Of a stretch of 54,651 nucleotides of DNA, positions 11,044 through 49,656 are shown piece by piece; the stretch's first letter is position 1, and the number at the start of each line of letters is the position of its first letter. Source of the DNA: an uncultured bacterium (GTDB lineage Bacteria > Vulcanimicrobiota > CADAWZ01); NCBI GenBank assembly GCA_949288455.1, contig CASEKF010000062.1, positions 1 through 54,651 on the forward strand. Direction: 5' to 3'. The translations under genes were made by a program, and so were the position numbers. The notes beneath the pieces were generated by a model that was given only the letters and a program-made list of their open reading frames with translations, searched no databases and was not told where the DNA came from.

Positions 11044-11167
11044 AAACATAACGTTAAAATTAAAAGATATATATATTTGTGCCTTCAAAAGGAATAGATA
11101 TATATTCTAAAGAAAATTATCTAAATAAAAAACAAAATAACGCATAAACAGGAGAATTATAAAAGCG

Positions 11168-12472
11168 ATGATATGTCCGTATTGCAACTCTAATATTGAA
11201 GACTCCATGACGTCTTTATGCCCGGAATGCGGCCTCGATTTTAAAACAGGCAGAAAATTCGTCGCTAATATAAATCCTCTCGGAGTTAAACTTCCTTTCT
11301 GGTCCTCAATTACTCAGGAAGACAACGCGATCGTTATTAAAATGAAAAATTCCAATACTTCAAACTATATTATATTTGCTCCTTTAACAATCTTTTTTAT
11401 TTTATCCTTTTTTGGCGTGTTTAGCAACTTAGACGGCATAACCTACTTTGGTATAATGTTAACATTTATTTTTATCGGTCTTGGCATATATTTGTTTTTA
11501 GATAATAGAGTTTCTACGGTGAAAATAGACGATCGACAAGTATATGTAAAAACGGTGGACGGACAAGAGAACTTATTGTCCTCCTCCTCTATAACTCAAA
11601 TATACTGCGAATTAGTACAAACCCTACAAGAGCATATCAGAATATATAGAAGACATTACGGTTTTTTTTACTTGCTTGAAAGCTTGCTGGATATAGCGAA
11701 AGACAAAGAAAGAAAATATTCGGTGCATTACTCTTTTTCCATAATTGCCAAACTTGAAAACGGAAGCGAAGCAGTCATTTTGGATAATATCAAATCAGCT
11801 TTAACAGCTCAATTTATAGAAGAAAAAATAGAAGAAAAATTAGGAATAATAAACCTTCCCTTGCCTAACGAATATGAGTCAATAGCCAAACGCACTATTG
11901 CCGAAATGAAATTTAAGCAATATAACGAATTGGAAACTAACCCTATAGGAGGAGTGGACTGGAGCGATCTAAACGGACATTTGACAATAAAAAGAAAATG
12001 GCATGCTCCTAAAAATTTAACTCTTATGATCGTCTTAAACGCGCTGACTTTAATATTTCTGTTCAATATGAATCTTTACTCCTCTTTGCCGCTTCCGGAG
12101 GCGTTTTCCTGCGCAATCGCTATTATGCTCCAGGTATGCGTAAATATTTACGCCATAACTTTATTCAGTAAAAATACCACGAAAATAAATGTCGACAATA
12201 TGGGAATAGACGTAACCGTCTATCCTATATTTTATCCCGGAAATTTTAGAATTGAGAAACATCAAATAGAAGATCTGTACGTTACGGACACGCTTATGAA
12301 AAATAATATGCCGGAATATAATATAGTAGTTAAATTATCAAGCGGAAATAAATACAGGCTTATGAGCGATATAAAACAGCTAAGCGAGGCTCAATTACTC
12401 GTATATAAAATAAAATGCATACTCGGAATGCATACGGGAGAGGATTTGTTATACAGACTGAAAGGATTTTAA
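11168..12472 (+). CDS. Zinc-ribbon membrane protein with two repeated membrane/PH-like modules (paralogue A1)
   Basis: The 434-aa protein starts with a zinc ribbon (Cys3, Cys6, Cys18, Cys21; MICPYC...LCPECGLDFKTGRKF). A hydrophobic hairpin (about residues 70-115) and a beta-rich segment (STVKIDDRQVYVKT...SSITQIYC...NIKSALTAQFIEEKIEEKLGI) follow. The second half repeats the plan: two hydrophobic helices (about 290-345) and a beta-rich segment (TTKINVDNMGIDVT...HQIEDLYVTDT...SEAQLLVYKIKCILGM). Each half looks like a membrane hairpin plus a bacterial PH-like domain; this is inference from pattern, not a database hit. It is a tandem paralogue of the next gene (shared block GLDFKTGRKFV.NINPLGVKLP.WSS). 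Function unknown. Confidence 0.75.
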   Translation: MICPYCNSNIEDSMTSLCPECGLDFKTGRKFVANINPLGVKLPFWSSITQEDNAIVIKMKNSNTSNYIIFAPLTIFFILSFFGVFSNLDGITYFGIMLTFIFIGLGIYLFLDNRVSTVKIDDRQVYVKTVDGQENLLSSSSITQIYCELVQTLQEHIRIYRRHYGFFYLLESLLDIAKDKERKYSVHYSFSIIAKLENGSEAVILDNIKSALTAQFIEEKIEEKLGIINLPLPNEYESIAKRTIAEMKFKQYNELETNPIGGVDWSDLNGHLTIKRKWHAPKNLTLMIVLNALTLIFLFNMNLYSSLPLPEAFSCAIAIMLQVCVNIYAITLFSKNTTKINVDNMGIDVTVYPIFYPGNFRIEKHQIEDLYVTDTLMKNNMPEYNIVVKLSSGNKYRLMSDIKQLSEAQLLVYKIKCILGMHTGEDLLYRLKGF

Positions 12473-20784: not shown

Positions 20785-20956
20785 GAAAAACGAACGCCTA
20801 AATAAATCTTAATTAATATCCTCGGAATGTTCCCAAATTAATTTTCATTTAAAAGAAAGGAATAAAATAGTTAAAGATTAAATTTATTCATTAAAAATCT
20901 ATTTAGTCAAACATACAAATTAAACATAATGACAAGATTAAAATTTGGAGAAAAAC

Positions 20957-27132: not shown

Positions 27133-27160
27133 TTGCCGTCTTAATATTGCGCGCTATAAA
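27133..27160 (+). promoter_or_regulatory. Putative promoter of the phoH operon
   Basis: TTGCCG (27133-27138), 16-bp spacer, TATAAA (27155-27160), about 95 bp upstream of the phoH ATG. Confidence 0.5.
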
Positions 27161-27255
27161 GGATAACCGAGAAGATATAAAGAAATTCTACATACTCTGT
27201 AAAAGAGGTTTTATATTCAATTTAAAAGCCGAGGCAAATACGGCGGGGAGGAAAA

Positions 27256-28620
27256 ATGGCAAGAAAAACTTTTGTTCTCGACACAAGCGTGCTGCTCCAT
27301 TCAGCCGATTCTCTCAATTCCTTTGAAGACAACGAAATAGTGCTTCCTATCGTAGTTTTAGACGAAATTGACAAATTTAAAAAAGGGTCGTCTGAAGTCA
27401 ATAGAAACGCAAGAAGAATCATAAAACAAATAGATCAGCTGCGGCAGGAAGGCTCTATAACCGAAGGCATACCGCTTTCAAACGGCGGACTGCTTAGAGT
27501 CGTAACCGACTTAGGGAAGACCGCTATGGCCAAACTTCTTCCCGAAGGTTTCGATTCTTCCAACGATAACAGAATACTTTCTCACGCTCTCGCATTAAAG
27601 AAAAACTCCAAAAACAGAAGAACGATACTGGTAAGCAAAGATATTAATATGAGAGTAAAAGCCGACGCGGTGGGCATAGAAGCCGAAGACTACGAAGCCG
27701 ATAAAGTAGAACTGGACGAATTATATTCCGGTCATGCAGAGATATACGTTTCTCCCGAAGAAATTGCCTCATTTTATAGAACCGGATCTCTTAAAAATCA
27801 TATCGACGAGCTAAAACCTAACGAATACGTTACTCTTTATAATTCTGAAGATCCGTCCGGCACTGCGCTGGGAAGATATGATTCGATAATGAGAGAAATT
27901 GTGCCGCTTCAATCTGAGGAAAATCTGTGGGGTATCGCTCCCAGGAACAGAGAGCAGCGCTTTGCGATAGATATGCTTTTAAACGATAAAATACAATTGG
28001 TTACATTGCTTGGCAAAGCGGGAACGGGAAAAACTCTCCTGGCTCTGGCTGTAAGTCTTCATAAAGTTTTAAGCTCAAACGCAAAAGATCCGGAAACAGA
28101 AACTTTCAGAAAATTAAACGTGTATAGACCGATAATTCCAATGGGCAAGGATATAGGTTATCTTCCCGGTAGGGAGGAAGATAAGATTCATCCATATATG
28201 TATCCTATATATGATAATCTTGAATATCTTTTGCATGACGGAGTTAAATACGATGGAATGAAGCATTCGGGAGGAGCCGCTTTGACGACTAAATATCTCC
28301 AGGACGCTCAAAAACTGGAAGTAAAAGCCCTTACGTACATAAGAGGAAGAAGTCTGCCTTATCAGATTATACTTGTCGACGAAGCTCAAAACCTAACTCC
28401 GCATGAAGCGAAGACAATTATTACAAGGGCCGGAGAAGGAACTAAAATCATATTCACCGGAGACGTATATCAAATTGATCATCCATATTTAGACTCTACC
28501 AGCAACGGACTCGCCTATATAGTAGAAAGATTTAAATATCAAAATCTTGCGGCTCATATTACTTTAAGTAAAGGCGAGAGATCAGATCTTGCGGAGCTTG
28601 CCGCAACCATATTGGAATGA
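27256..28620 (+). CDS. PhoH2 protein: PIN-domain ribonuclease fused to PhoH ATPase/helicase
   Basis: The 454-aa protein has an N-terminal PIN domain (about 1-140) with acidic residues in FVLDTSVLLH, VLDEIDKF and SNDNRILS plus VSKDINMRVKAD, as in PIN nucleases. A PhoH P-loop domain follows (about 225-454): Walker A LGKAGTGKTLLALA, Walker B IILVDEAQNLTPHEAKTIITR, then GTKIIFTGDVYQIDHPYLD. PIN-PhoH (PhoH2, YlaK-like) proteins act as RNA-unwinding ribonucleases in the cases I know. The gene starts a unit in which the next two frames follow at short distances; its stop overlaps an ATG (ATGA at 28617). Confidence 0.93.
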   Translation: MARKTFVLDTSVLLHSADSLNSFEDNEIVLPIVVLDEIDKFKKGSSEVNRNARRIIKQIDQLRQEGSITEGIPLSNGGLLRVVTDLGKTAMAKLLPEGFDSSNDNRILSHALALKKNSKNRRTILVSKDINMRVKADAVGIEAEDYEADKVELDELYSGHAEIYVSPEEIASFYRTGSLKNHIDELKPNEYVTLYNSEDPSGTALGRYDSIMREIVPLQSEENLWGIAPRNREQRFAIDMLLNDKIQLVTLLGKAGTGKTLLALAVSLHKVLSSNAKDPETETFRKLNVYRPIIPMGKDIGYLPGREEDKIHPYMYPIYDNLEYLLHDGVKYDGMKHSGGAALTTKYLQDAQKLEVKALTYIRGRSLPYQIILVDEAQNLTPHEAKTIITRAGEGTKIIFTGDVYQIDHPYLDSTSNGLAYIVERFKYQNLAAHITLSKGERSDLAELAATILE

Positions 28621-36857: not shown

Positions 36858-38216
36858 TTAAAAAGACGCCTTTGTCAAGTTAGTCCCGGGATAATAATTA
36901 TAAAGAATTTTGCGGTAATCCCAGCCATTTTTAGCAAAACCGTAAGCTCCCCACTGACACATGCCTACTCCATGCCCCCAACCTGAACCGGAAAAAGTAA
37001 ACGCGGAAGAAACGTCTATTTCAGATATTTCGCTTTTAATAGAAGCTATGGAAACCGGAAGACGAGACGCCGCCAGAATCCCGGCTAAATGTTCTAAAGA
37101 CTCTTTTTCCATCTGCGCCTGAAGCATCGTGTCCGCCTGCACGACTTTTTCGTCGACAAGAGTCGAAGTTTCGTTATCCGAATCGTTTGAAGGCAAACAA
37201 ATTTTTACCGATAAAAGAAATACTTTCTTTTCTGCCCCGTCCATAGGCGTAGAAACTAAGGAATATTTAGTGCTTTTTTGTTTGTCGGCTCCCAACGCAA
37301 GCCTAAAATCTGCCGCTTTAACCGTCGTTACGCCGTTAGAAGCGATTATCTTCAAAGAGACGGCTCTGCCGGAATCGTCCGTTTTATCAATTTTTATATC
37401 CAGCAAATCTCCGGATATAATTTTTTTATCGTTTAAAAGTTTTGAAAGTTCATCGCGCTTAATCGAATAAGTCCATTCCGAAGGAGCGCAATACGGACAT
37501 GAAGCCGAAGCCAGATACGGCAAATCTCCGGATTCAAAAACGTTGTCTCCGGGACTTGTCCTGCCCGCGCAATTAGAATGAAAAAACGCGGAAATAGGCG
37601 AATCATTAAAAACAAGAATCTCGCCTGAAGTAGCGTTCACAGCCTCGATAACAGAAGGAGATTCTCCTTCGACTCCAGCGTAGATTTGATCTTTAACCGT
37701 TGAAAAAACGTCGAACGACGCATGTCTGGGAGTTCTTTTCATAGAAGCGGCGTAAGTTCTGGCCGCCACGCTCTGAGCCTTTAAAGCTTCTATATGCCAT
37801 GAAGCGGGCATTTCTCCGCCTACTACGCCGTATAAATATTCGTCGGTTTTTAATTTATTTATAACAAGCAAATAACCCGGTTTTTCAGATAAAATAAAAA
37901 TATCTCCTCTGTATGGCTTGCCGTTTACTTGCATATAGGACGGAGACGACAACTTTAAAATTCCCGACGCCTTATTATCTTTGAAAGAAATGAAATCGCC
38001 TTCCGCTTTAAATTCAGTCTCTTCTAAAAATTCGTCCGTATGCCCGTCAGGCTTAACTACAGAAAAACAGCCTGAAAGCGAAATAATTTTAACGGAAGGA
38101 GCTTCGAGTAAAAGGACTCTCATCATACCCGGAGTATCTTCTATAACGGCCGAAAAGGCAAAACCGAAGAAGACGCAAAATACAACCGCCGCAATAATCG
38201 TTCTTTTCAAATTCAT
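36858..38216 (-). CDS. SpoIID/LytB-domain protein (putative peptidoglycan lytic enzyme)
   Basis: The 452-aa exported protein has a signal sequence (IIAAVVFCVFFGFAFSAVIE). The SpoIID domain signature is LKTDEYLYGVVGGEMPASWHIEALKAQSVAARTYA with the catalytic Glu, then SSCPYC-type pair CPYC, and at the C-terminus GSGWGHGVGMCQWGAYGFAKNGWDYRKILYNYYPGT. In sporulating Firmicutes SpoIID cleaves stem-less glycan strands during engulfment. Related LytB/SpoIID proteins occur widely in non-sporulating bacteria and cyanobacteria, so this does not by itself imply spores. It is upstream of pheS-pheT in the same direction with no terminator between. Confidence 0.9.
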   Translation of the reverse strand: MNLKRTIIAAVVFCVFFGFAFSAVIEDTPGMMRVLLLEAPSVKIISLSGCFSVVKPDGHTDEFLEETEFKAEGDFISFKDNKASGILKLSSPSYMQVNGKPYRGDIFILSEKPGYLLVINKLKTDEYLYGVVGGEMPASWHIEALKAQSVAARTYAASMKRTPRHASFDVFSTVKDQIYAGVEGESPSVIEAVNATSGEILVFNDSPISAFFHSNCAGRTSPGDNVFESGDLPYLASASCPYCAPSEWTYSIKRDELSKLLNDKKIISGDLLDIKIDKTDDSGRAVSLKIIASNGVTTVKAADFRLALGADKQKSTKYSLVSTPMDGAEKKVFLLSVKICLPSNDSDNETSTLVDEKVVQADTMLQAQMEKESLEHLAGILAASRLPVSIASIKSEISEIDVSSAFTFSGSGWGHGVGMCQWGAYGFAKNGWDYRKILYNYYPGTNLTKASF

Positions 38217-38411: not shown

Positions 38412-38420
38412 CTCCAAATA

Positions 38421-38505
38421 CCGAAGATCGGGGTCGAACCGATACGGGATTATCCATCCCCCAGGATTTTAAGTCCTGTGCGTCTGCCTATTCCGCCACT
38501 CCGGC
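38421..38505 (-). tRNA. tRNA-Leu (anticodon UAA)
   Basis: The 85-nt class II tRNA is read on the minus strand. The acceptor stem is GCCGGAG / CTTCGGT (two G-U pairs), with discriminator A. The D-loop contains the AATAGGC box, and the anticodon stem-loop CAGGA CTTAAAA TCCTG carries TAA. A long variable arm (GGGGATGGATAATCCC) and the T-loop GGTTCGACCCC follow. It decodes UUA, a frequent leucine codon in this AT-rich window. CCA is not encoded. Confidence 0.95.
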
Positions 38506-38520
38506 TTTTCAACAATAAAT

Positions 38521-38548
38521 ATTATAACAATTTTTAAAAATATGTCAA
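38521..38548 (-). promoter_or_regulatory. Promoter of tRNA-Leu
   Basis: On the minus strand TTGACA (38548-38543), 16-bp spacer, TATAAT (38526-38521): both hexamers are perfect consensus. The mature tRNA 5' end lies 16 nt downstream. Confidence 0.85.
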
Positions 38549-38703: not shown

Positions 38704-38732
38704 TTGACAGTTTCAGCCTGCGTCTATATAAT
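38704..38732 (+). promoter_or_regulatory. Perfect-consensus sigma-70 promoter of the SigH-like gene
   Basis: TTGACA (38704-38709), exactly 17 bp, TATAAT (38727-38732). The leader of about 50 nt contains a CGGATATCC palindrome and the ribosome site ATCGGAGGAT 8 nt before the TTG start codon. The 38549-38703 stretch upstream shows no other feature. Confidence 0.88.
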
Positions 38733-38787
38733 TGGAGAGTGAATCCCTTTAGCCGGATATCCAGGTTAAGGATCGGAGGATTAGAAT

Positions 38788-39429
38788 TTGTTAAAGCTTT
38801 CGTCGCAAACCATAGCAAATTTCAGTCAAGAGACTGACGAGGATATTGTTAAACTTGCAAAAAACGGGGAGGAATTTGCAACAGAATATTTAATCAATAA
38901 ATATAAAAATTTTGTCAGGGTAAAAGCGAAGTCATATTTTTTGGTAGGAGCAGATAGAGAAGATATAATCCAGGAAGGAATGATAGGATTATATAAAGCG
39001 ATAAGAGATTTTAGAGCAGACAAACTGTCTTCTTTTCGAGCTTTTGCCGAATTGTGTATAACCCGTCAAATTATTACGGCGATTAAAACAGCCACAAGAC
39101 AAAAGCATATTCCCTTAAATTCATATATATCTCTTAATAAGCCTATATATGACGAAGATTCGGATAGAACTATGCTCGATATACTCTCGGGAACAAAAAT
39201 AACGGATCCTGAAGAAGTTTTTATAAGTCATGAATTATCAGACGACTTAAGAGAAAAAATTCAGGAAAACCTGAGCGAACTTGAATCGCAAGTTCTTCTG
39301 TCATATCTGGAGGGCAAAAGCTATCAGGAAATGGCAAAAGAATTAAATCGCCATGTAAAATCGATAGACAACGCTCTGCAAAGAATTAAAAGAAAAATAG
39401 AAAAAACCCTTGGAGAAAAGAACTTTTAA
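38788..39429 (+). CDS. sigH: Sigma-70 family factor of the SigH (Spo0H) type
   Basis: The 213-aa sigma factor has region 2 (FVRVKAKSYFLVGADREDIIQEGMIGLYKAIRDF, then SSFRAFAELCITRQIITAIKTATRQKHIPLNSYISL) and region 4 (LSELESQVLLSYLEGKSYQEMAKELNRHVKSIDNALQRIKRKIEKTL). Regions 1.1 and 3 are absent. From memory it is close to Bacillus subtilis SigH along its whole length, including the PLNSY.SL segment and the NRHVKSIDNALQR recognition helix. The start is TTG with a strong ribosome site and a perfect housekeeping promoter, so transcription is probably high or controlled by a trans-acting repressor. A bidirectional terminator isolates it from the downstream oxygen-defence genes. Regulon unknown. 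Confidence 0.93.
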   Translation: MLKLSSQTIANFSQETDEDIVKLAKNGEEFATEYLINKYKNFVRVKAKSYFLVGADREDIIQEGMIGLYKAIRDFRADKLSSFRAFAELCITRQIITAIKTATRQKHIPLNSYISLNKPIYDEDSDRTMLDILSGTKITDPEEVFISHELSDDLREKIQENLSELESQVLLSYLEGKSYQEMAKELNRHVKSIDNALQRIKRKIEKTLGEKNF

Positions 39430-39437
39430 TAAAATGG

Positions 39438-39477
39438 GCATTTCTTATACTTAAGCTCGCCTAAGTATAAGAAATGC
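39438..39477. terminator. Terminator after sigH-like gene
   Basis: GCATTTCTTATACTTA (39438-39453) and TAAGTATAAGAAATGC (39462-39477) form a 16-bp stem with an 8-nt loop, flanked by AAAA on the left and TTTT on the right. Confidence 0.75.
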
Positions 39478-39530: not shown

Positions 39531-39905
39531 ATGACAAAAATAAATCAAATTTACAAATGCAACATATGCGGAAATATGATTGAGATCATACATGCCGCGG
39601 CAGGAAAACTTATGTGCTGCGGACAGGAAATGTCTCTTCTTGACGAAAACACGAGGGATGCCTCTAAGGAAAAACATGTGCCGGTTATCGAATATAAAGA
39701 CGGCGGAACTCTGGTGCGAGTAGGCTCTCTCCCGCATCCTATGGAAGAAAAGCATTATATAGAATGGATAGAGGCAATAAGCGGGAACACAGTGATAAGA
39801 AAAATGTTAAAGCCCGGAGATCAGCCTGAAGCATTTTTCAAATGCGCTTTAGAAAACGCTTCAGTCAGAGAATTATGCAACCTGCACGGTTTGTGGAAAG
39901 CGTAA
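39531..39905 (+). CDS. dfx: Desulfoferrodoxin (2Fe superoxide reductase)
   Basis: The 124-aa protein is a complete class I superoxide reductase. Desulforedoxin-type Fe centre I has Cys10, Cys13, Cys29 and Cys30. Catalytic Fe centre II has His49, His69, His75, Cys116 and His119, with the Glu47-Lys48 pair in EKHVP next to the active site. It reduces superoxide to peroxide using electrons from rubredoxin, which is encoded two genes downstream. ATG 39531 is used; AGGAAAGGAAGAG lies upstream. It starts a three-gene oxygen-defence operon (dfx, fprA, rubredoxin) with spacings of 17 and 2 nt. No promoter close to consensus is obvious after the preceding terminator. Confidence 0.95.
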   Translation: MTKINQIYKCNICGNMIEIIHAAAGKLMCCGQEMSLLDENTRDASKEKHVPVIEYKDGGTLVRVGSLPHPMEEKHYIEWIEAISGNTVIRKMLKPGDQPEAFFKCALENASVRELCNLHGLWKA

Positions 39906-39922
39906 AGCCTAAGGAGAGAAAT

Positions 39923-41134
39923 ATGGAACCTATAAAAATCAAAGAAAATCTTTGGCAGATTCCGGTGACTGATTGGAACATAAGAGATTTTCACGGATAT
40001 TCGGTATACAGCGGAACGACTTATAACGCATATTTGTCCACAGGCTCTAAGAACGTACTTTTCGACACGGCGAAAAAAGGATTCGGGGAACATTTTTTCG
40101 GTATGATCTCCAAAATAATAGAGCCGAATAAAATCGATTATATATTTGTAAATCATGCGGAACCGGATCATTCTGGTCTGCTTCCGGAAGCCGTAGAAAG
40201 AATACGTCCTGACAAAATATTCTTAAGCGAAACATGCGGAAAAGCTATAACGGATCATTATCACGGAAAGGATTGGCCTTTTGAAATATTAAAAGACGGA
40301 CAAGAAGTCGACATATCTTCTAGAAAAGTCGTTTTTCTGGAAACAAAAATGCTGCATTGGCCGGACAGTTGTTTCTCATATCTTAAAGACGACGGCATTC
40401 TGATATCCAGCGACGCTTTCGGGCATCACTGGGCTACAAGCGGCAGATATGACGACGAAGTAAACTCTGAAGAGCTGGTCAGGCACTCTAAAAAATATTT
40501 TGCCAATATTCTTTTGCCGTTTGCTTCCCTAATCAAAAAACTGCTGCGAAGAACAGCGGATATGAAATTAAAAATCAATATGATATGTCCGGATCATGGA
40601 GTGATATGGCGCAATAATCCTGATCGTATAATAAACTTATACGATAAATGGAGCGAGTCAAAACTCGAATCTAGAGAAAAAAAAGCGGTGATATTCTACG
40701 ACACAATGTGGCAAAGCACTGAAAAAATGGCTTACGCTATAACGGACGGCTTCAAACTGCAAAACTTCGAAGTAATTATGATGAATTTGAGAGCAAATCA
40801 TAGAAGCGAAGTAATGACGGAAATTTTAGACGGAGCTATAGTAGCGGCGGGATCGCCAACTTTAAATAATGGAATCATGCCGACGGTCAGCGATATGCTA
40901 TGCTATATGCGCGGTTTGAAGCCTTCCGGCAGAATAGGAGGATGTTTCGGCTCTTACGGCTGGAGCGGAGAATCTGTCAAGGAAATCGGAGAATATATGG
41001 CGAAAGCAGGATTAGAACAGCCATGCGGCGCAATCAAGGCAAAATATGTTCCAACTGAAGAAGATTTGCAAAAATGCAGGCAATATGCGGCAGATCTTGC
41101 CGAGCAATATTTAAACCACATAAAAGGAGAATAA
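39923..41134 (+). CDS. fprA: FprA-type flavodiiron protein (rubredoxin:oxygen oxidoreductase)
   Basis: The 403-aa protein combines a metallo-beta-lactamase-like diiron domain with a C-terminal flavodoxin domain. The diiron ligands are His78, Glu80, Asp82 and His83 in NHAEPDH, His in MLHWPDS, Asp in SSDAFGHHW, and His in CPDHGVIW; all are present. The flavodoxin domain (about 255-400) starts [18 protein letters not shown], with [17 protein letters not shown] and GSYGWSGES loops for FMN. It reduces O2 to water (or NO to N2O) with electrons from rubredoxin. ATG 39923 follows AAGGAGAG; a longer frame overlapping dfx is not credible. It is the middle gene of the oxygen-defence operon. Confidence 0.95.
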
Positions 41135-42561: not shown

Positions 42562-42666
42562 GCAAACAAAAATTAATCGTCAGAAGCATTAAGTATAGCA
42601 GGAAGAATTTATCGATTGTCAAAACAGAATAAGACGGTTCGGGTTATTTTCCGGAGGGACTTTATT

Positions 42667-44865
42667 TTGTCAAGCATAAGGCTTATCGTTATATATATAT
42701 TTCTTTCGGCGGGAATATTTGTATTGACCGCTTCAAACGCCTATCCAAACGCAAACGTATCTCCAATATCTTTGCAAAGAAGAGATCCGTTCCAAATCGT
42801 ATTTCCCGCGACAAATTTTTCACAAAAAAACGACAGATTAGCAATGCGTAAGCAAACATCAAAAAAGGCGAAAGCGGCAAATCAAAAAGCAAATATATCG
42901 GCGGAACAAATAACGTACAAAAATCAAAAAGCCATGGCTTCAGGAAACGCTACAGTTATATATAGAGACGCCGTAATAAAAGCCGATACAATTATTTACG
43001 ACGAATTAAATAGAACTATTACCGCTTCCGGCAACGTAGACGTCACGCAGAAAAACAGCAATTTAAAAGGAGATTACGGAACATATAACTTAGACGACGG
43101 AAGCGCGGAATTAATTAACGCTTACGGAAGCACGGACGAAGTAATTCAAAATGATAAAAAAATTCAAGGCAAAATATATTTTTGGGGCGAAAAAATCACT
43201 AGAGACGAAAAATCTACGAAGATTAAAAACGCCGTAATAACTACCTGCGACTGTCCCAGACCTGACATTCACTATCATATTACAAGCGAAGAAACGGAAA
43301 TAATACCGGGAGATAAAATAATCGCTTATAAATCAAAATTAAAATTCAAAGAAAAAACCTTTCTTAATTATAACCGTTTAGAATTATCGCTCGATAAAAA
43401 GAAGCAAAGCCTTATACCGACGATAGGAAGAAACGAAAATGACGGTTGGTATCTCAAAAAAGATCTTGACTTCAAATTGTTTAATAATCCGGGCATCGCT
43501 CATATTGATCTTTATGAAAAAACGGGGATAGGCTTTGGAATAAAATACCCATACTCTTTGCTGGGAGGCAAAATCTTCGGATATCTGGATTATTATGATC
43601 ATACTCCCGCCTCAACGGCAGTGATAACGGAAAACCTCACTAACGACCAAAGAGAAATGACCATAGGAGAAAAAGAACTTAGAAATGATTTAAGATATGA
43701 AATAGGCAACGGATATTACGCAGGATTTAATTTAGGCTCATACGATTATCAATATCCGGGGGAATTGAGCAGCAGTTGGAACAATTATTACTTTTACTTT
43801 GGAAGAAGTACGGAAAACCAATCTATACTTCTATCGCAAGCCACTACGGACTATAATACTTATACTTATCAAAGCAAATCTCTTGAATTTGCCCAAAAAT
43901 TAGGCGAAGGATGGACTTGGAGAGTCGGAGGATATAATAGCGGATATGCCGGGAGTATCGACACAAACGACTCAATCTGGAGATATTATACGAATCTGAA
44001 TTATTCAAACGACTTTAGCGAAGCAAATTTAACATACTTAAGAACTAACACAAGCGAACTTTATCATCTGGATAAAATTCCGGAGATAAATTTTATGACT
44101 AAAAATCTCAATATAGCCGGTCTGCCCATAAAAGCGGCGGTCAGCGCGGGCAGCTACAGAGAGGAACCCAGCGGACTAGCTCTAAATAGAGGCAAATTTT
44201 ATATAGGGCTCGAACCCGTAAGCGTAGCGGTAGGCAATTACGGCAAGCTGGACATAGGCGGAGGTTTTCAGCAAACGCTGTGCGACGACGGAAGCGGCAG
44301 ATATGTATTCAGCGGGGAAACCGCATATAAACACAAAATTACTGATAATATAAACTTGAGTTTAAATTACCTCTTCCAATCTCCTAAAGGACACTCGCCG
44401 TTTATAGACGATTACGTTCCTTCATACAGCTTATTCACAGTGGGAGCCGAAATCTTCAACGGAGATTCATGGAAATTTTCAATATCAGGCGGATACGACT
44501 ATCTTTACGACGTAAGAACAAGTATAATAACGACTTTAAAGCTTAAACCGAGCGAAAAATTTGACTGGACTTTAAGCGCTCATTATAATGCCAATACTCA
44601 TGAGCTTCCCAACCTTACTTCTCAGCTTAAAGTAGATTTAGGGAACGGATTTTCAATTGAAAACTGGACTTTATACGATAATATCAACGACAGATTTACA
44701 TACCTAAACATAGGAATAACAAAAGAAACGCATGACTTCGTCACTAAACTTTTATATAGGAATCAACAAAAAGAGCTATGGCTTCAATTTTATTTAAAAG
44801 CTTTTCCTGAAGAACCTGAAATTATACTGCCTTCCCCTAACCATATTATAAGCCCGAATCAATAA
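42667..44865 (+). CDS. lptD: LPS-assembly outer-membrane protein LptD-like (OstA)
   Basis: The protein of about 732 aa has a signal peptide (SSIRLIVIYIFLSAGIFVLT, cleavage near ASNAYPNA). An OstA beta-jellyroll domain spans about 70-170 (ISAEQITYKNQKAMASGNATVIYRDAVIKADTIIYDELNRTI). A short segment with the DCPRPDIHYHI motif often seen in non-proteobacterial LptD leads into a beta-barrel rich in alternating Tyr/Trp/Gly strands, to residue 720. It would insert LPS into the outer leaflet. I choose TTG 42667 because GGAGGG lies 8 nt upstream and the signal peptide then has normal length; TTG 42616 would add 17 residues. No paired LptE is seen. The 3' end overlaps the convergent lipoprotein gene by 7 bp. 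Confidence 0.85.
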   Translation: MSSIRLIVIYIFLSAGIFVLTASNAYPNANVSPISLQRRDPFQIVFPATNFSQKNDRLAMRKQTSKKAKAANQKANISAEQITYKNQKAMASGNATVIYRDAVIKADTIIYDELNRTITASGNVDVTQKNSNLKGDYGTYNLDDGSAELINAYGSTDEVIQNDKKIQGKIYFWGEKITRDEKSTKIKNAVITTCDCPRPDIHYHITSEETEIIPGDKIIAYKSKLKFKEKTFLNYNRLELSLDKKKQSLIPTIGRNENDGWYLKKDLDFKLFNNPGIAHIDLYEKTGIGFGIKYPYSLLGGKIFGYLDYYDHTPASTAVITENLTNDQREMTIGEKELRNDLRYEIGNGYYAGFNLGSYDYQYPGELSSSWNNYYFYFGRSTENQSILLSQATTDYNTYTYQSKSLEFAQKLGEGWTWRVGGYNSGYAGSIDTNDSIWRYYTNLNYSNDFSEANLTYLRTNTSELYHLDKIPEINFMTKNLNIAGLPIKAAVSAGSYREEPSGLALNRGKFYIGLEPVSVAVGNYGKLDIGGGFQQTLCDDGSGRYVFSGETAYKHKITDNINLSLNYLFQSPKGHSPFIDDYVPSYSLFTVGAEIFNGDSWKFSISGGYDYLYDVRTSIITTLKLKPSEKFDWTLSAHYNANTHELPNLTSQLKVDLGNGFSIENWTLYDNINDRFTYLNIGITKETHDFVTKLLYRNQQKELWLQFYLKAFPEEPEIILPSPNHIISPNQ

Positions 44866-45623: not shown

Positions 45624-47153
45624 ATGAATACAGTAATAAAAACCAACGCTTTACTTTTAAATTTCTTTCTTTCAGTTCTTAGCGGATTCCTGCTTGTAAT
45701 GACAATTCCAGGGACTAACGCTCCTTTAGCGGCATGGATAGCCTTAGTCCCGGCAATTTTAAATTTAAACGGATCCTCTTTTACAAAAGCGTTTTTTTTC
45801 TCGTTTTTAACGGGATTTTTATATTTTTCCTCGCTTCATTTATGGGCAAACGTTTTCGGCTGGGAAGTCTGGCTGGCGTCTTCGTTAGTACATCCAATAT
45901 GCGCAGGCATGTGGGGAGGCCTTGCAAGCTTATGCTTAACGAACAAATATTCGAGTTCGTTTGTTCGAATATTTGTTCCGGCAGGATTATGGGTAATATT
46001 CGAACATTTCAAAACTCTAGGCGTTCTGGGAGTAAACTGGGGAAGTTTAGCTTACTCGCAATATCAATGTATTGAATTAATACAAATAGCCGGAATAACA
46101 GGCATGTACGGAATAACGTTCCTATTGGCTTTTTCTTCAAGCTTAATAAGCGAATTGATACGCCTGGTTATCTTAAAACAACAGATAACCAAACTTCATA
46201 TTCTTATTGTCGCGGCATTTGTTATCATTTTAATAAGCGTTATAAAATATGGGGCCTTAGTAATTCATGAAGACGAAACGCAAGCCGGCACATCCATTCG
46301 AATAGGCATAGTTCAGCCTTCATTTGAAATGGCAATAAAAACGGATCCTTACTATAAAAAGTTCATGTTAGCTCATATTATAAATCTTATACGTCAATGC
46401 GAAAAAGAGCGGCCTGACATTATAATACTTCCCGAAACTTCTATACCGTATGCCTTGCCGAACAGGCCTATGCAATTAATTATGTCGAAGCTTGCAAAAG
46501 ACGTCAGAACGCCGATAGTATACGGAGCGATAACTATAAACGAACGACAGCAGACGTATAACAGCGCCGTTTTATACGACTCATATGGAAAAGTCTCCGG
46601 CATTTACAGCAAAAGGAAGCTTGTGCCCTTCGGCGAATATCTTCCGCTGCCGGATTCCTGGCGTACAATGCATAAACAGCTAAAACGAATTCCAAACTTT
46701 ACTCCGGGCACACAACTCGCGAATTTCTCAATAAAAGGACAAAAATTTGGCGCCATAATATGTTTCGAATCAGATTTTCCGGCTTACGTTACGGAAGCGG
46801 TCAATCATGGGTCTAAATTCATAGTCGCTCTTACAAACGACGCATGGTTTGAAAACTACAGCGTCGCCGAAAATCATGTCAGCTGGAACGCGATACGAGC
46901 CGCAGAAAGCCATGCTCCGATCATCCAATCGGCCAACGCGGGCATAAGCGCGATAATAAATCGAAACGGGAAAATACTAAAACGTATCGAATTGTTTAAT
47001 AGAGCCGTTATGTGCGAAGAAATAAAATTACTCTCCACGGGTTCTTTTTACGCTAAAAACGGAGAAATTTTTCTTGTCGCGTGTTATTTTATTACTTTAT
47101 TAGCAATGTTGACTATAGTTTTAAATAAAACGCAGAAAACGGAGAAAACATGA
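45624..47153 (+). CDS. lnt: Apolipoprotein N-acyltransferase
   Basis: The 509-aa protein has six to seven N-terminal membrane helices (about 1-215) followed by a periplasmic carbon-nitrogen hydrolase domain. The Glu-Lys-Cys triad is Glu in ILPETSIPYAL near residue 272, Lys in YSKRKLVPFGEYLP near 330, and Cys in GAIICFESDFPAYV near 380. A last membrane helix (about 475-500) ends the protein. It transfers a third acyl chain to the N-terminal cysteine of lipoproteins; at least three lipoprotein genes lie in this window. The next gene overlaps it (ATGA at 47150). Confidence 0.95.
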   Translation: MNTVIKTNALLLNFFLSVLSGFLLVMTIPGTNAPLAAWIALVPAILNLNGSSFTKAFFFSFLTGFLYFSSLHLWANVFGWEVWLASSLVHPICAGMWGGLASLCLTNKYSSSFVRIFVPAGLWVIFEHFKTLGVLGVNWGSLAYSQYQCIELIQIAGITGMYGITFLLAFSSSLISELIRLVILKQQITKLHILIVAAFVIILISVIKYGALVIHEDETQAGTSIRIGIVQPSFEMAIKTDPYYKKFMLAHIINLIRQCEKERPDIIILPETSIPYALPNRPMQLIMSKLAKDVRTPIVYGAITINERQQTYNSAVLYDSYGKVSGIYSKRKLVPFGEYLPLPDSWRTMHKQLKRIPNFTPGTQLANFSIKGQKFGAIICFESDFPAYVTEAVNHGSKFIVALTNDAWFENYSVAENHVSWNAIRAAESHAPIIQSANAGISAIINRNGKILKRIELFNRAVMCEEIKLLSTGSFYAKNGEIFLVACYFITLLAMLTIVLNKTQKTEKT

Positions 47154-48049
47154 ATATTGCGATAAAAACGGCGCTGATAGCCGGCATTTGCCTGTTTATA
47201 ATTCTTCCAATATCAGCGCAGGAAAACCAGGATATAAACCTTCAAAAAAAACCGGCTTCGCCTCGAAAAAGCGAAATACCTCCGATAAAAGAGCCTGAAT
47301 TTGCAAACAATCCCAAAACCGTTAAAATGACTGCGGACAGATTGTTATACGACGATCAAACAAAAATATCTCAGCTTCGAGGAAACGTAAAAATTACTTA
47401 CGGAGATTCGGTAATTACGTCGCGATACGCTACGTTTCATGGAGACTCTAAAGAAGCGTTTTTTACCGGAGGGGTACGACTATTTCGTCCCGGAACCACT
47501 CTTACGGGAGATAAAATGGACGTCTACTACAATGAAGAAAGAGCCGTAATAAAAGAAAACGTAAGAGGAGTCTCTTACCAAAAACAAGAGAAAAAGCCGG
47601 GTAAAAAACAAGGAACCCCGGATGAAGAAGCCCCGTTAATTATAACTTGCAGACAAGCCGAGTATTTCTGGGGAAACGAAGAAGCATACGTAGACGGAAA
47701 CGTCAGAATATCGAAAAACGACAAACGGGCGTATGCCGACCATGGACATTACAGCCAAAGTATTCAAACGGTTATTCTAACCGATAACGTACGATTTGAA
47801 CAAGGCTCCGGCAACTGGATGACCTGCCCTGAAGCGGTCTTCGATATAAAAGCCGAAACCTTCGCGGCTAAAGGAGGAGTCAGCGCCGAAATAGAAATAG
47901 CGTCTCCGGAACAACAAGAAAATAACGACGAGAAAAGCGCTAACAATCAAAAGGATAATCTGAAAGAGTTGCCTGAAGATAGAGTATTGGTTCCGAAAAT
48001 AGAGCCGCAAGAAACAGACGAAGTTATATTCACGGAAGAAGATTTTTAA
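47150..48049 (+). CDS. LptA/OstA-like periplasmic protein
   Basis: The 299-aa protein has a signal peptide (LIAGICLFIILPISAQE) and an OstA-type beta-jellyroll of repeated short strands (VKMTADRLLYDDQTKISQLRGNVKITYGDSVITSRYATF; AFFTGGVRLFRPGTTLTGDKMDVYY; AEYFWGNEEAYVDGNVRISKND). It is the likely LptA-type bridge passing LPS to LptD. The C-terminal 60 residues are acidic and low complexity. The start overlaps the lnt stop (ATGA), so translation is coupled. The IS element begins within about 40 nt of its stop, or could even have supplied the last codons, as the insertion point is not resolved. Confidence 0.85.
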   Translation: MNIAIKTALIAGICLFIILPISAQENQDINLQKKPASPRKSEIPPIKEPEFANNPKTVKMTADRLLYDDQTKISQLRGNVKITYGDSVITSRYATFHGDSKEAFFTGGVRLFRPGTTLTGDKMDVYYNEERAVIKENVRGVSYQKQEKKPGKKQGTPDEEAPLIITCRQAEYFWGNEEAYVDGNVRISKNDKRAYADHGHYSQSIQTVILTDNVRFEQGSGNWMTCPEAVFDIKAETFAAKGGVSAEIEIASPEQQENNDEKSANNQKDNLKELPEDRVLVPKIEPQETDEVIFTEEDF

Positions 48050-48516: not shown

Positions 48517-49656
48517 ATGAAACTCCTCAAAGCATATAAATTTAGAATTTATCCAAATGATGAACAAAAGATATTTTTTAGTAAAACTTTTGGTTGTGTT
48601 CGTCTTGTCTATAATCTTATGCTAAACGATAGAATTAAGGAATATGAAGAAAGCAAAGGTAATCCTAATAAACGGATAAAATATCCTACTCCTGCAAAAT
48701 ATAAAAAAGAATATGAATTTCTAAAAGAGGTTGATAGCTTAGCTCTTGCTAATGCTCAAATGAATTTGAATAAAGCATACAAGAATTTTTTTAGAGATAA
48801 ATCTATCGGTTTTCCCAAATTCAAATCTAAGAAAAATCCTGTACAAAGTTACACAACTAATAATCAAAATGGAAGTATAAATATTTTTGAAAATTGGTTA
48901 AAACTTCCTAAATTAAAAGAATTAATAAAGATAAAAGCACATAGGAAACTAGATGGTATAATAAAAGCCGCTACTATTTCGCGTACCGGAAGCGGTAAAC
49001 ATTTTATCTCTTTGTTGTGTGAAAGCGATATACAAGAATTACCAAAAACTAATTCATCAGTAGGAATTGACTTAGGTATTAAGGATATGGCTATTTTATC
49101 TACCGGAGAAAAAATCAAGAATATTAGATTTAGCAAACAATTAGAAGATAAACTAAAAAAAGAACAAAGAAAATTATCTAAAAGATTATTAGTGGCTAAA
49201 AAAGAAAATAGGAAATTACATGAATCTAAAAACTATCAAAAACAAAGAATTAAAGTAGCTAAGATACATGAAAAGATTATGAATATGAGAGTGGATTTCT
49301 TACATAAGTTAAGTATGGATATTATCAAAAATCACGATATTATCTGTATTGAAAACTTAAATATAAAGGGATTGCTTTGTAATCATAAATTAGCAAAATC
49401 TATCGCAGATGTATCTTGGCATAGTTTTATAAATAAATTGGAGTATAAAGCTAGATGGTATGGTAAAGAAATAATAAAAGTTGATAGATTATATCCATCT
49501 AGTCAAATATGCTCCGTATGTGGTTATAGAGGTGGCAAAAAAACTCTTGATATTAGAGAATGGACTTGTCCTGTTTGTCATACTCATCATGACAGAGATA
49601 TAAATGCAAGTAAAAATATATTGGCTGAAGGTCTAAGAATAAGAGAAATAGCCTAA
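48517..49656 (+). CDS. tnpB: RNA-guided nuclease TnpB
   Basis: The 379-aa TnpB has RuvC residues Asp185 (SVGIDLGIKD), Glu279 (ICIENLNIKGL) and Asp361 (HDRDINASKNI), all present. The zinc finger is Cys332/335 and Cys351/354. The N-terminal wedge/REC region (AYKFRIYPNDEQKIFFSKTFGC) is complete. TnpB proteins of this kind cut DNA guided by an omega-RNA made from the element's right end. All catalytic residues are kept, so the protein should be active. The start is ATG 48517. Confidence 0.94.
   Translation: MKLLKAYKFRIYPNDEQKIFFSKTFGCVRLVYNLMLNDRIKEYEESKGNPNKRIKYPTPAKYKKEYEFLKEVDSLALANAQMNLNKAYKNFFRDKSIGFPKFKSKKNPVQSYTTNNQNGSINIFENWLKLPKLKELIKIKAHRKLDGIIKAATISRTGSGKHFISLLCESDIQELPKTNSSVGIDLGIKDMAILSTGEKIKNIRFSKQLEDKLKKEQRKLSKRLLVAKKENRKLHESKNYQKQRIKVAKIHEKIMNMRVDFLHKLSMDIIKNHDIICIENLNIKGLLCNHKLAKSIADVSWHSFINKLEYKARWYGKEIIKVDRLYPSSQICSVCGYRGGKKTLDIREWTCPVCHTHHDRDINASKNILAEGLRIREIA

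Follow-up and report, generated by a model that had tools for sequence, protein, structure and literature searches.

In Bacillus, sigma-H stands at the entry to endospore formation. A gene of this type lies in a stretch of DNA of 54,651 nucleotides, here called the window, from a diderm bacterium of LPS type, and the locus raises the question of whether the gene encodes a working sigma-H, how it came to be present and what it may control in such a host. The host phylum is Eremiobacterota (WPS-2; Vulcanimicrobiota in NCBI), and the window's genome (G000) comprises 2.13 Mb at 98.9% completeness. Sequences from the same phylum at the sigH locus match a named Candidatus Eremiobacterota record with 92% identity over 0.8 kb (G025 and L020) and a named WPS-2 record with 90% identity over 3 kb (G027 and L026). 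In a tree of RpoB, the window's genome and its phylum mates group with the named Eremiobacterota L010 and L015 and with L029, a third metagenome-assembled genome (MAG) from the same SigH clade as those two (SH-aLRT 99); the named Eremiobacterota in the trees are ranked as Vulcanimicrobiota by NCBI. Two further records, L007 and L072, titled Melainabacteria and Armatimonadetes, have SigH proteins that group with the window's phylum, as does the RpoB of G006, the genome of L072; they are probably mislabelled.

The lptD, lnt and lptA-like genes ascribed to the window by the earlier note were recovered there as matches to LptD_N, Lnt and an LptA/LptC-like family (Table 1). Spore formation is not known from this phylum, and its cultured member, Vulcanimicrobium, is described as having an LPS-covered outer membrane and as non-spore-forming (PMC9758169). 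Near the Lpt-type genes of the window lies an IS605-type OrfB/TnpB gene with a Cas12f1-like TNB domain.

Table 1. Features of the window, in order of position.
Feature	Position	Strand	Evidence or remark
Weaker near-consensus SigH-type site	11088..11116	+	52 bp upstream of gene at 11168
Weak near-consensus SigH-type site	20856..20884	+	61 bp upstream of gene at 20945
Near-consensus SigH-type site (GAAAT for GAAT)	27158..27186	+	70 bp upstream of PhoH/PIN gene
PhoH/PIN-domain gene, predicted SigH target	27256..28620	+	Near-consensus site, G002 counterpart
SpoIID/LytB-domain gene, divergent from sigH	36858..38216	-	Also adjoins sigH in G002, G003
tRNA-Leu (TAA), between SpoIID-like gene and sigH	38419..38505	-	tRNA/Rfam search
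Second perfect promoter, TTGACA-16-TATAAT, TG before -10	38521-38548	-	Adjoins tRNA-Leu gene
Sigma-70-type promoter of sigH, TTGACA, 17-bp spacer, TATAAT, exact	38704..38732	+	Motif search
Shine-Dalgarno-like GGAGGA in sigH leader	38775..38780	+	Leader TTAAGGATCGGAGGA common to G002, G003
sigH ORF, 213 aa, TTG start	38788..39429	+	ORF call, profile scores, tree
Region 2.4 (-10 recognition), residues 94-122	39067..39153	+	27/29 positions invariant, 28 SigH proteins
Region 4.2 (-35 recognition), residues 186-213	39343..39426	+	18/28 positions invariant, 28 SigH proteins
18-bp inverted repeat 3' of sigH, likely terminator	39438..39477		Repeat search
Desulfoferrodoxin, then flavorubredoxin-like	39531-41134	+	Directly 3' of sigH
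LptD_N-domain gene	42616-44865		Domain search
Lnt	45624-47153		255 bits vs cut-off 132.9
LptA/LptC-like protein	47150-48049		Domain search
IS605-type OrfB/TnpB	48517-49656	+	Near Lpt-type genes

The identity of the gene was assessed through whole-protein profile searches. The window protein scores 348.7 bits against TIGR02859 (spore_sigH), for which the equivalog cut-off is 294.8, and 367.9 bits against NF006148 (SigH; cut-off 208). The SigB, SigBFG, SigK and SigE models yield merely 37-54 bits, with TIGR02980 at 40.9 (cut-off 234.35) and TIGR02941 at 40.8 (cut-off 315) both far below the thresholds of the SigB/SigF/SigG families, and the RpoE_Sigma70 subgroup model gives 49.4 bits where 236.15 is needed. 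Extracytoplasmic function (ECF, group 4) factors share the two-domain build and a similar length, but the superfamily model sigma70-ECF gives 91.5 bits, against the 348.7 of spore_sigH. Identity to Bacillota and clostridial SigH is 73-79% among the best 80 of at least 585 loci. In an alignment of 28 SigH proteins, drawn from Bacillota and from the window's own phylum, the region that we take to be 2.4 is near-invariant, and the presumed region 4.2 is conserved to the extent given in Table 1. The TTG start recurs in sigH of G002 and G003, and is replaced by GTG in that of G004. The SigH-type motifs and the start codon proposed earlier are thus upheld, although the interval then assigned, 38704-39429, holds both the gene and its promoter, the ORF itself beginning at 38788. 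On the evidence of sequence, it is best taken as a genuine orthologue of the Bacillota factor; its family is a known one, and its interest is evolutionary.

Upstream of the gene lies an exact match to the sigma-70 consensus, just as had been claimed. Promoters of this perfection, with spacers of 16-18, occur twice in the window where 0.03 would be expected, and the second of them likely drives the tRNA-Leu gene. Both hexamers before sigH are preserved in full (12/12 positions) in G002 and G003, both members of the window's family, and in G010, G013 and G016; 11/12 positions match in G004, G006, G012 and G018, and weaker matches, of 8-9/12, are found in G007, G020, G022 and G024. Since the hexamers have been kept while the flanking DNA diverged, selection on the promoter is suggested. 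By its sequence it is of a near-consensus-perfect housekeeping type, from which its strength may be inferred. A riboswitch-like leader was considered and rejected: the window's leader folds with a z score of -0.25, neither it nor the G002 leader does better than shuffled sequence, and the tRNA is the only Rfam match in the window, with no leader RNA family found. Directly 3' of sigH, the desulfoferrodoxin and flavorubredoxin-like sequences constitute an oxygen/superoxide defence pair of an anaerobe.

Since region 2.4 is near-invariant (27/29 positions in 28 SigH proteins), genomes of the phylum were searched for the Bacillus-type SigH consensus, AGGAWWW-N11/12-RNNGAAT. The same half-sites at spacings of 8-9 and 14-15, which preserve codon phase, served as controls. 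A reversed-pattern control was rejected as the main control, as it would overstate the excess (for G004, 154 against 8): reversal makes GAAT into TAAG, which is expected to be rarer in coding DNA. In the window's family (f1), the correct spacing outnumbers each control in every genome, with 57 sites against 41 and 38 (at 8-9 and 14-15, respectively) in the window's genome, 47 against 34 and 24 in its relative G001, the horse-faeces MAG Horse_feces333, 82 against 53 and 53 in G002, and 56 against 37 and 42 in G003. Pooled, this gives 242 correctly spaced sites against 322 in the two controls (p 1.4e-6); for the window's genome alone the excess is modest (p 0.022). The effect is far stronger in G004, from the window's order (154 against 59 and 75; p 1.7e-12), and is seen in one further family with G006 (61 against 27 and 40; p 5.5e-4). 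No excess was found in G010 (39 against 46 and 55), G013 (53 against 49 and 50) or G018 (2 against 21 and 12), nor in families f8, f9, f12, f14 and f16. As a positive control, the listing for Moorella thermoacetica covered 100 of 147 matches; of the 96 distinct ones in it, 62 have a spacing of 11-12, against an expectation of 24. The genome-wide search for SigH-type promoters, proposed as a check by the earlier note, thus yields a spacing-specific excess in f1, G004 and G006. What appears to be new here is a genomic footprint of the SigH consensus that is specific to spacing; we infer that the window SigH recognises RNAGGAWWW-N11/12-RNNGAAT promoters, with which this footprint agrees.

The location of the sites points the same way. 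Each of the 57 in the window's genome was inspected: 35 are intergenic, and for 32 a same-strand ORF, as called mechanically, begins no more than 300 bases downstream of the site. Among 50 of the 79 wrongly spaced sites, 8 are intergenic and 7 upstream, so that the upstream fraction is 32/57 against 7/50 (p 6.6e-6). Bases outside the search pattern also follow the SigH consensus in the 32 upstream sites, with A before AGGA in 23 and a purine two before it in 26, a match that is partly one of composition since the comparison sites are mostly coding. In G002, which belongs to another genus, 42 of the 82 sites, all examined, are intergenic and 36 upstream. With the distance limit at <=300, a homologue among the 36 predicted targets of G002 exists for 13 of 33 predicted targets in the window's genome; among 117 control ORFs, the same is true of 2 (p 2.5e-8). 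Ten of the 13 pairs share at least 45% identity; two members, L189 and L264, match weakly within large families and are possibly not orthologous. The recurring pairs mostly keep their half-sites and differ in the spacers. With the window's genome and G002, G004 has a lipoprotein family (L215) in common; with G002 and G003, it has a zinc-ribbon family (L173) in common. The window contains no strict SigH site. One of the two control hits was the PhoH/PIN-domain gene of the window, upstream of which a near-consensus site was then found, as the regulon model predicts; its G002 counterpart, with a protein 78% identical, has a strict site. In G004, a SigH-type site precedes by 51 bases the start of a gene judged by eye to be EF-Tu-like (L212).

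The 32 predicted targets of the window's genome, named by their Pfam families, include two T2SSE ATPases (one with MshEN), PilZ, HU, CarD, RRM, EF-P, DnaJ and cyclophilin proteins, as well as PspA, OsmC, two HlyD adaptors, NlpC/P60, a PlsX-type fatty acid synthesis protein and a ketoacyl synthase. The rest comprise DegT, amidohydrolase, M20, PfkB, Fic, BsuPI, glycosyltransferase and DUF6941 proteins and several without a family. A handful are probably chance hits, judging by the control rate (7 of 50 control sites also being upstream). As a set, the targets suggest nucleoid, stress, envelope and surface functions. It is possible, though we think it rather unlikely, that SigH is chiefly a pilus or competence switch, as are the ComX-like and SigH factors of non-sporulating Bacillota, with the other targets being minor. 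SigH-type sites do stand at both T2SSE ATPases, at a homologue in G004 and at the PilZ protein, and the SigH regulon of Lactobacillus sakei consists of competence genes, according to PMC3364868; however, most of the predicted targets are neither pilus nor DNA-uptake genes, and no pilus ATPase figures among the strict-site targets of G002. The Bacillota factors in question (L. sakei SigH, Staphylococcus aureus SigH and streptococcal ComX) resemble the window protein as SigH-family factors operating without sporulation and in having secretion- or pilus-type ATPases among their targets, here predicted. They are, on the other hand, highly divergent, L. sakei SigH having only 24% identity to that of B. 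subtilis (PMC3364868), whereas the window SigH retains its 73-79% to clostridial SigH among the best 80 of at least 585 loci.

How the gene came to be in this phylum was addressed through its distribution, its neighbours and its phylogeny. SigH above the family cut-off is present in 124 of 149 phylum genomes, and a match of any score in 147; the remaining matches fall below the cut-off, some of them being fragments and some only paralogous sigma factors. The hint in the earlier note of a gene peculiar to this organism finds no support, sigH being ordinary in its phylum. Gene order was counted by protein searches around sigH. Where at least 600 bases of sequence were available, the gene immediately before sigH encodes RlmB in 25 of 26 Eremiobacterota-type loci, in 12 of 19 others from the window's phylum, in 5 of 6 from Armatimonadota/ANGP1 and in 41 of 49 from Bacillota. 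With at least 2.2 kb, CysS lies upstream in all 14 Eremiobacterota-type loci, none of 3 other loci of the phylum, all 6 of Armatimonadota/ANGP1 and 34 of 45 of Bacillota. In G026 (L102), CysS, RlmB, SigH and NusG all occur in Bacillota order. The window's family has lost the linkage to rlmB (0/3), its sigH adjoining a SpoIID-domain gene, so that the cysS-rlmB-sigH-nusG location, typical of the family if not strictly defining, is not that of the window's gene. According to PMC3364868, sigma-H-like factors occur widely in Firmicutes and are linked to the cysS-nusG locus, and the location of sigH varies even within Bacillota. Searches of the open-access PMC library turned up nothing on SigH for either Eremiobacterota or Armatimonadota.

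The SigH tree has 81 rows, with Bacillota thinned to 24; it is unrooted, and is based on the best 80 of at least 585 loci, with the other phyla sampled shallowly. It separates Bacillota (SH-aLRT 98), Armatimonadota with ANGP1 (97), Eremiobacterota proper (98) and the broader clade of the window (92), and the same groups are recovered by the RpoB tree, built from tblastn segments. A grouping with SigB/SigF or generic ECF factors, named earlier as the outcome that would tell against SigH, is seen in neither the profile scores nor the tree. The phylum-wide presence, the Bacillota-like gene order of other lineages in the phylum and a SigH tree splitting by phylum like that of RpoB together favour an old, vertically kept gene; of the two origins first envisaged, a very old shared trait or a transfer, the former is thus preferred, and a recent transfer is rejected on the same three grounds. 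There remains an ancient transfer of SigH and its neighbourhood between phyla, for example from early Bacillota to the ancestor of Eremiobacterota and Armatimonadota, followed by vertical inheritance. The strong conservation of SigH (73-79% identity between the window and Bacillota, on the same best 80 of at least 585 loci) and the joining of the groups by one branch of an unrooted tree would be compatible with it; the gene order common over several genes, the presence throughout the phylum and the agreement of the SigH groups with RpoB make it improbable.

The families without an excess are informative in another respect. Strict matches in 27 GC-rich genomes numbered 21, of which 12 were copies in a single genome, G011, which was dropped to leave 9 in 26. 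Over the spacing range 8-15, these 26 (families f9, f14 and f16) yield 145 matches; 36 of them would be expected to have a spacing of 11-12, but only 9 do (p 2.9e-9). Among 50 matches listed for the same families, a spacing of 11-12 is seen once, and the control spacings in the same phase account for 41. G018, from f12, has 2 of 48 matches at 11-12 (p 1.4e-4). Correctly spaced SigH sites are about fourfold depleted in the GC-rich families, which may be read as the effect of an active SigH whose regulon is small, with stray SigH promoters being selected against. The copies in G011, a single-contig GC-rich genome, are twelve near-identical copies of an element with a SigH-type site (L155, L157, L159-L168).

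That SigH is present without any real role, its sites being chance matches in AT-rich DNA, would be in keeping with the small excess in the window's genome (57 against 41 and 38) and with the five families, f8, f9, f12, f14 and f16, in which there is none. We regard this as very unlikely, given the location of the sites and their recurrence (32/57 against 7/50, and 13/33 against 2/117), the strong excess in G004 (p 1.7e-12), the spacing-specific depletion in the GC-rich families and the near-invariance of region 2.4.

The domain Spo0A_C is absent from all 148 phylum genomes in a profile search for which B. subtilis gave a positive control, leaving the sporulation-initiation pair of SigH and Spo0A incomplete in the phylum. 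The window's genome encodes five sigma-70-type proteins, namely SigH, one RpoD-like, one FliA/WhiG-like (exceeding the TIGR02479 cut-off) and two ECF-like, and none of the other four passes the SigE, SigF, SigG or SigK cut-offs. A Spo0A-independent route to sporulation, started by SigH, is barely credible: sigH and the SpoIID-domain gene stand side by side, but with Spo0A missing in 148/148 genomes, no SigE/SigF/SigG/SigK over cut-off in the window's genome and a cultured relative, Vulcanimicrobium, non-spore-forming according to PMC9758169, that neighbour is rejected as a sign of sporulation. As for the stationary-phase regulon in a non-sporulating diderm that had been proposed, the regulon is supported by its footprint, its conservation and the absence of Spo0A; 'stationary phase', at which the kinds of target may hint, is not supported.

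Measured against the sporulation sigma-H of Bacillota (TIGR02859), the window protein is alike in its full-length, over-cut-off match and near-invariant region 2.4, in the cysS-rlmB-sigH order found elsewhere in its phylum, and in a presumed promoter consensus and a spacing footprint such as those of Moorella. It differs in its host, an LPS-type diderm without Spo0A, in a predicted regulon without recognisable sporulation-specific genes and in the departure of its family from the ancestral locus. The explanation we favour, and consider quite probable, is of a working sigma-H, older than spores and vertically kept, with a housekeeping promoter, post-transcriptional control and a non-sporulation regulon. 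The gene would have been kept by vertical descent in Eremiobacterota, from an ancestor that predates, or is coeval with, Bacillota, and would be transcribed from its near-consensus-perfect promoter. SigH would load core RNA polymerase onto AAGGAWWW-N11/12-RNNGAAT promoters, as region 2.4 and the spacing footprint suggest, and would transcribe about 25-30 units in the window's genome, those of the T2SSE ATPases, HU, CarD, RRM, efflux adaptors and lipoproteins among others. Since Spo0A is absent and a perfect sigma-70 promoter lies upstream, its activity would most likely be set after transcription, through protein turnover, translation or competition for core polymerase, although such a promoter fits constitutive expression equally well. 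The outcome would be a growth-transition or envelope/surface-structure programme rather than sporulation.

In a broader reading, on which our confidence is evenly poised, sigma-H was a growth-transition or surface-structure factor of the common ancestor of Bacillota, Armatimonadota and Eremiobacterota, already on the cysS-rlmB locus and with the same promoter code; Spo0A and sporulation would have been added later in Bacillota, while the diderms keep it active. If so, some diderm lineages today use many SigH promoters and others purge stray ones. A diderm phylum with a near-identical SigH, the same promoter code and no Spo0A would offer a natural picture of the state 'before spores', and the ancestral regulon would be the one that this phylum has in common with Bacillota. 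Spacing-specific excess or depletion may, moreover, provide a cheap and general test of sigma-factor activity in uncultured lineages.
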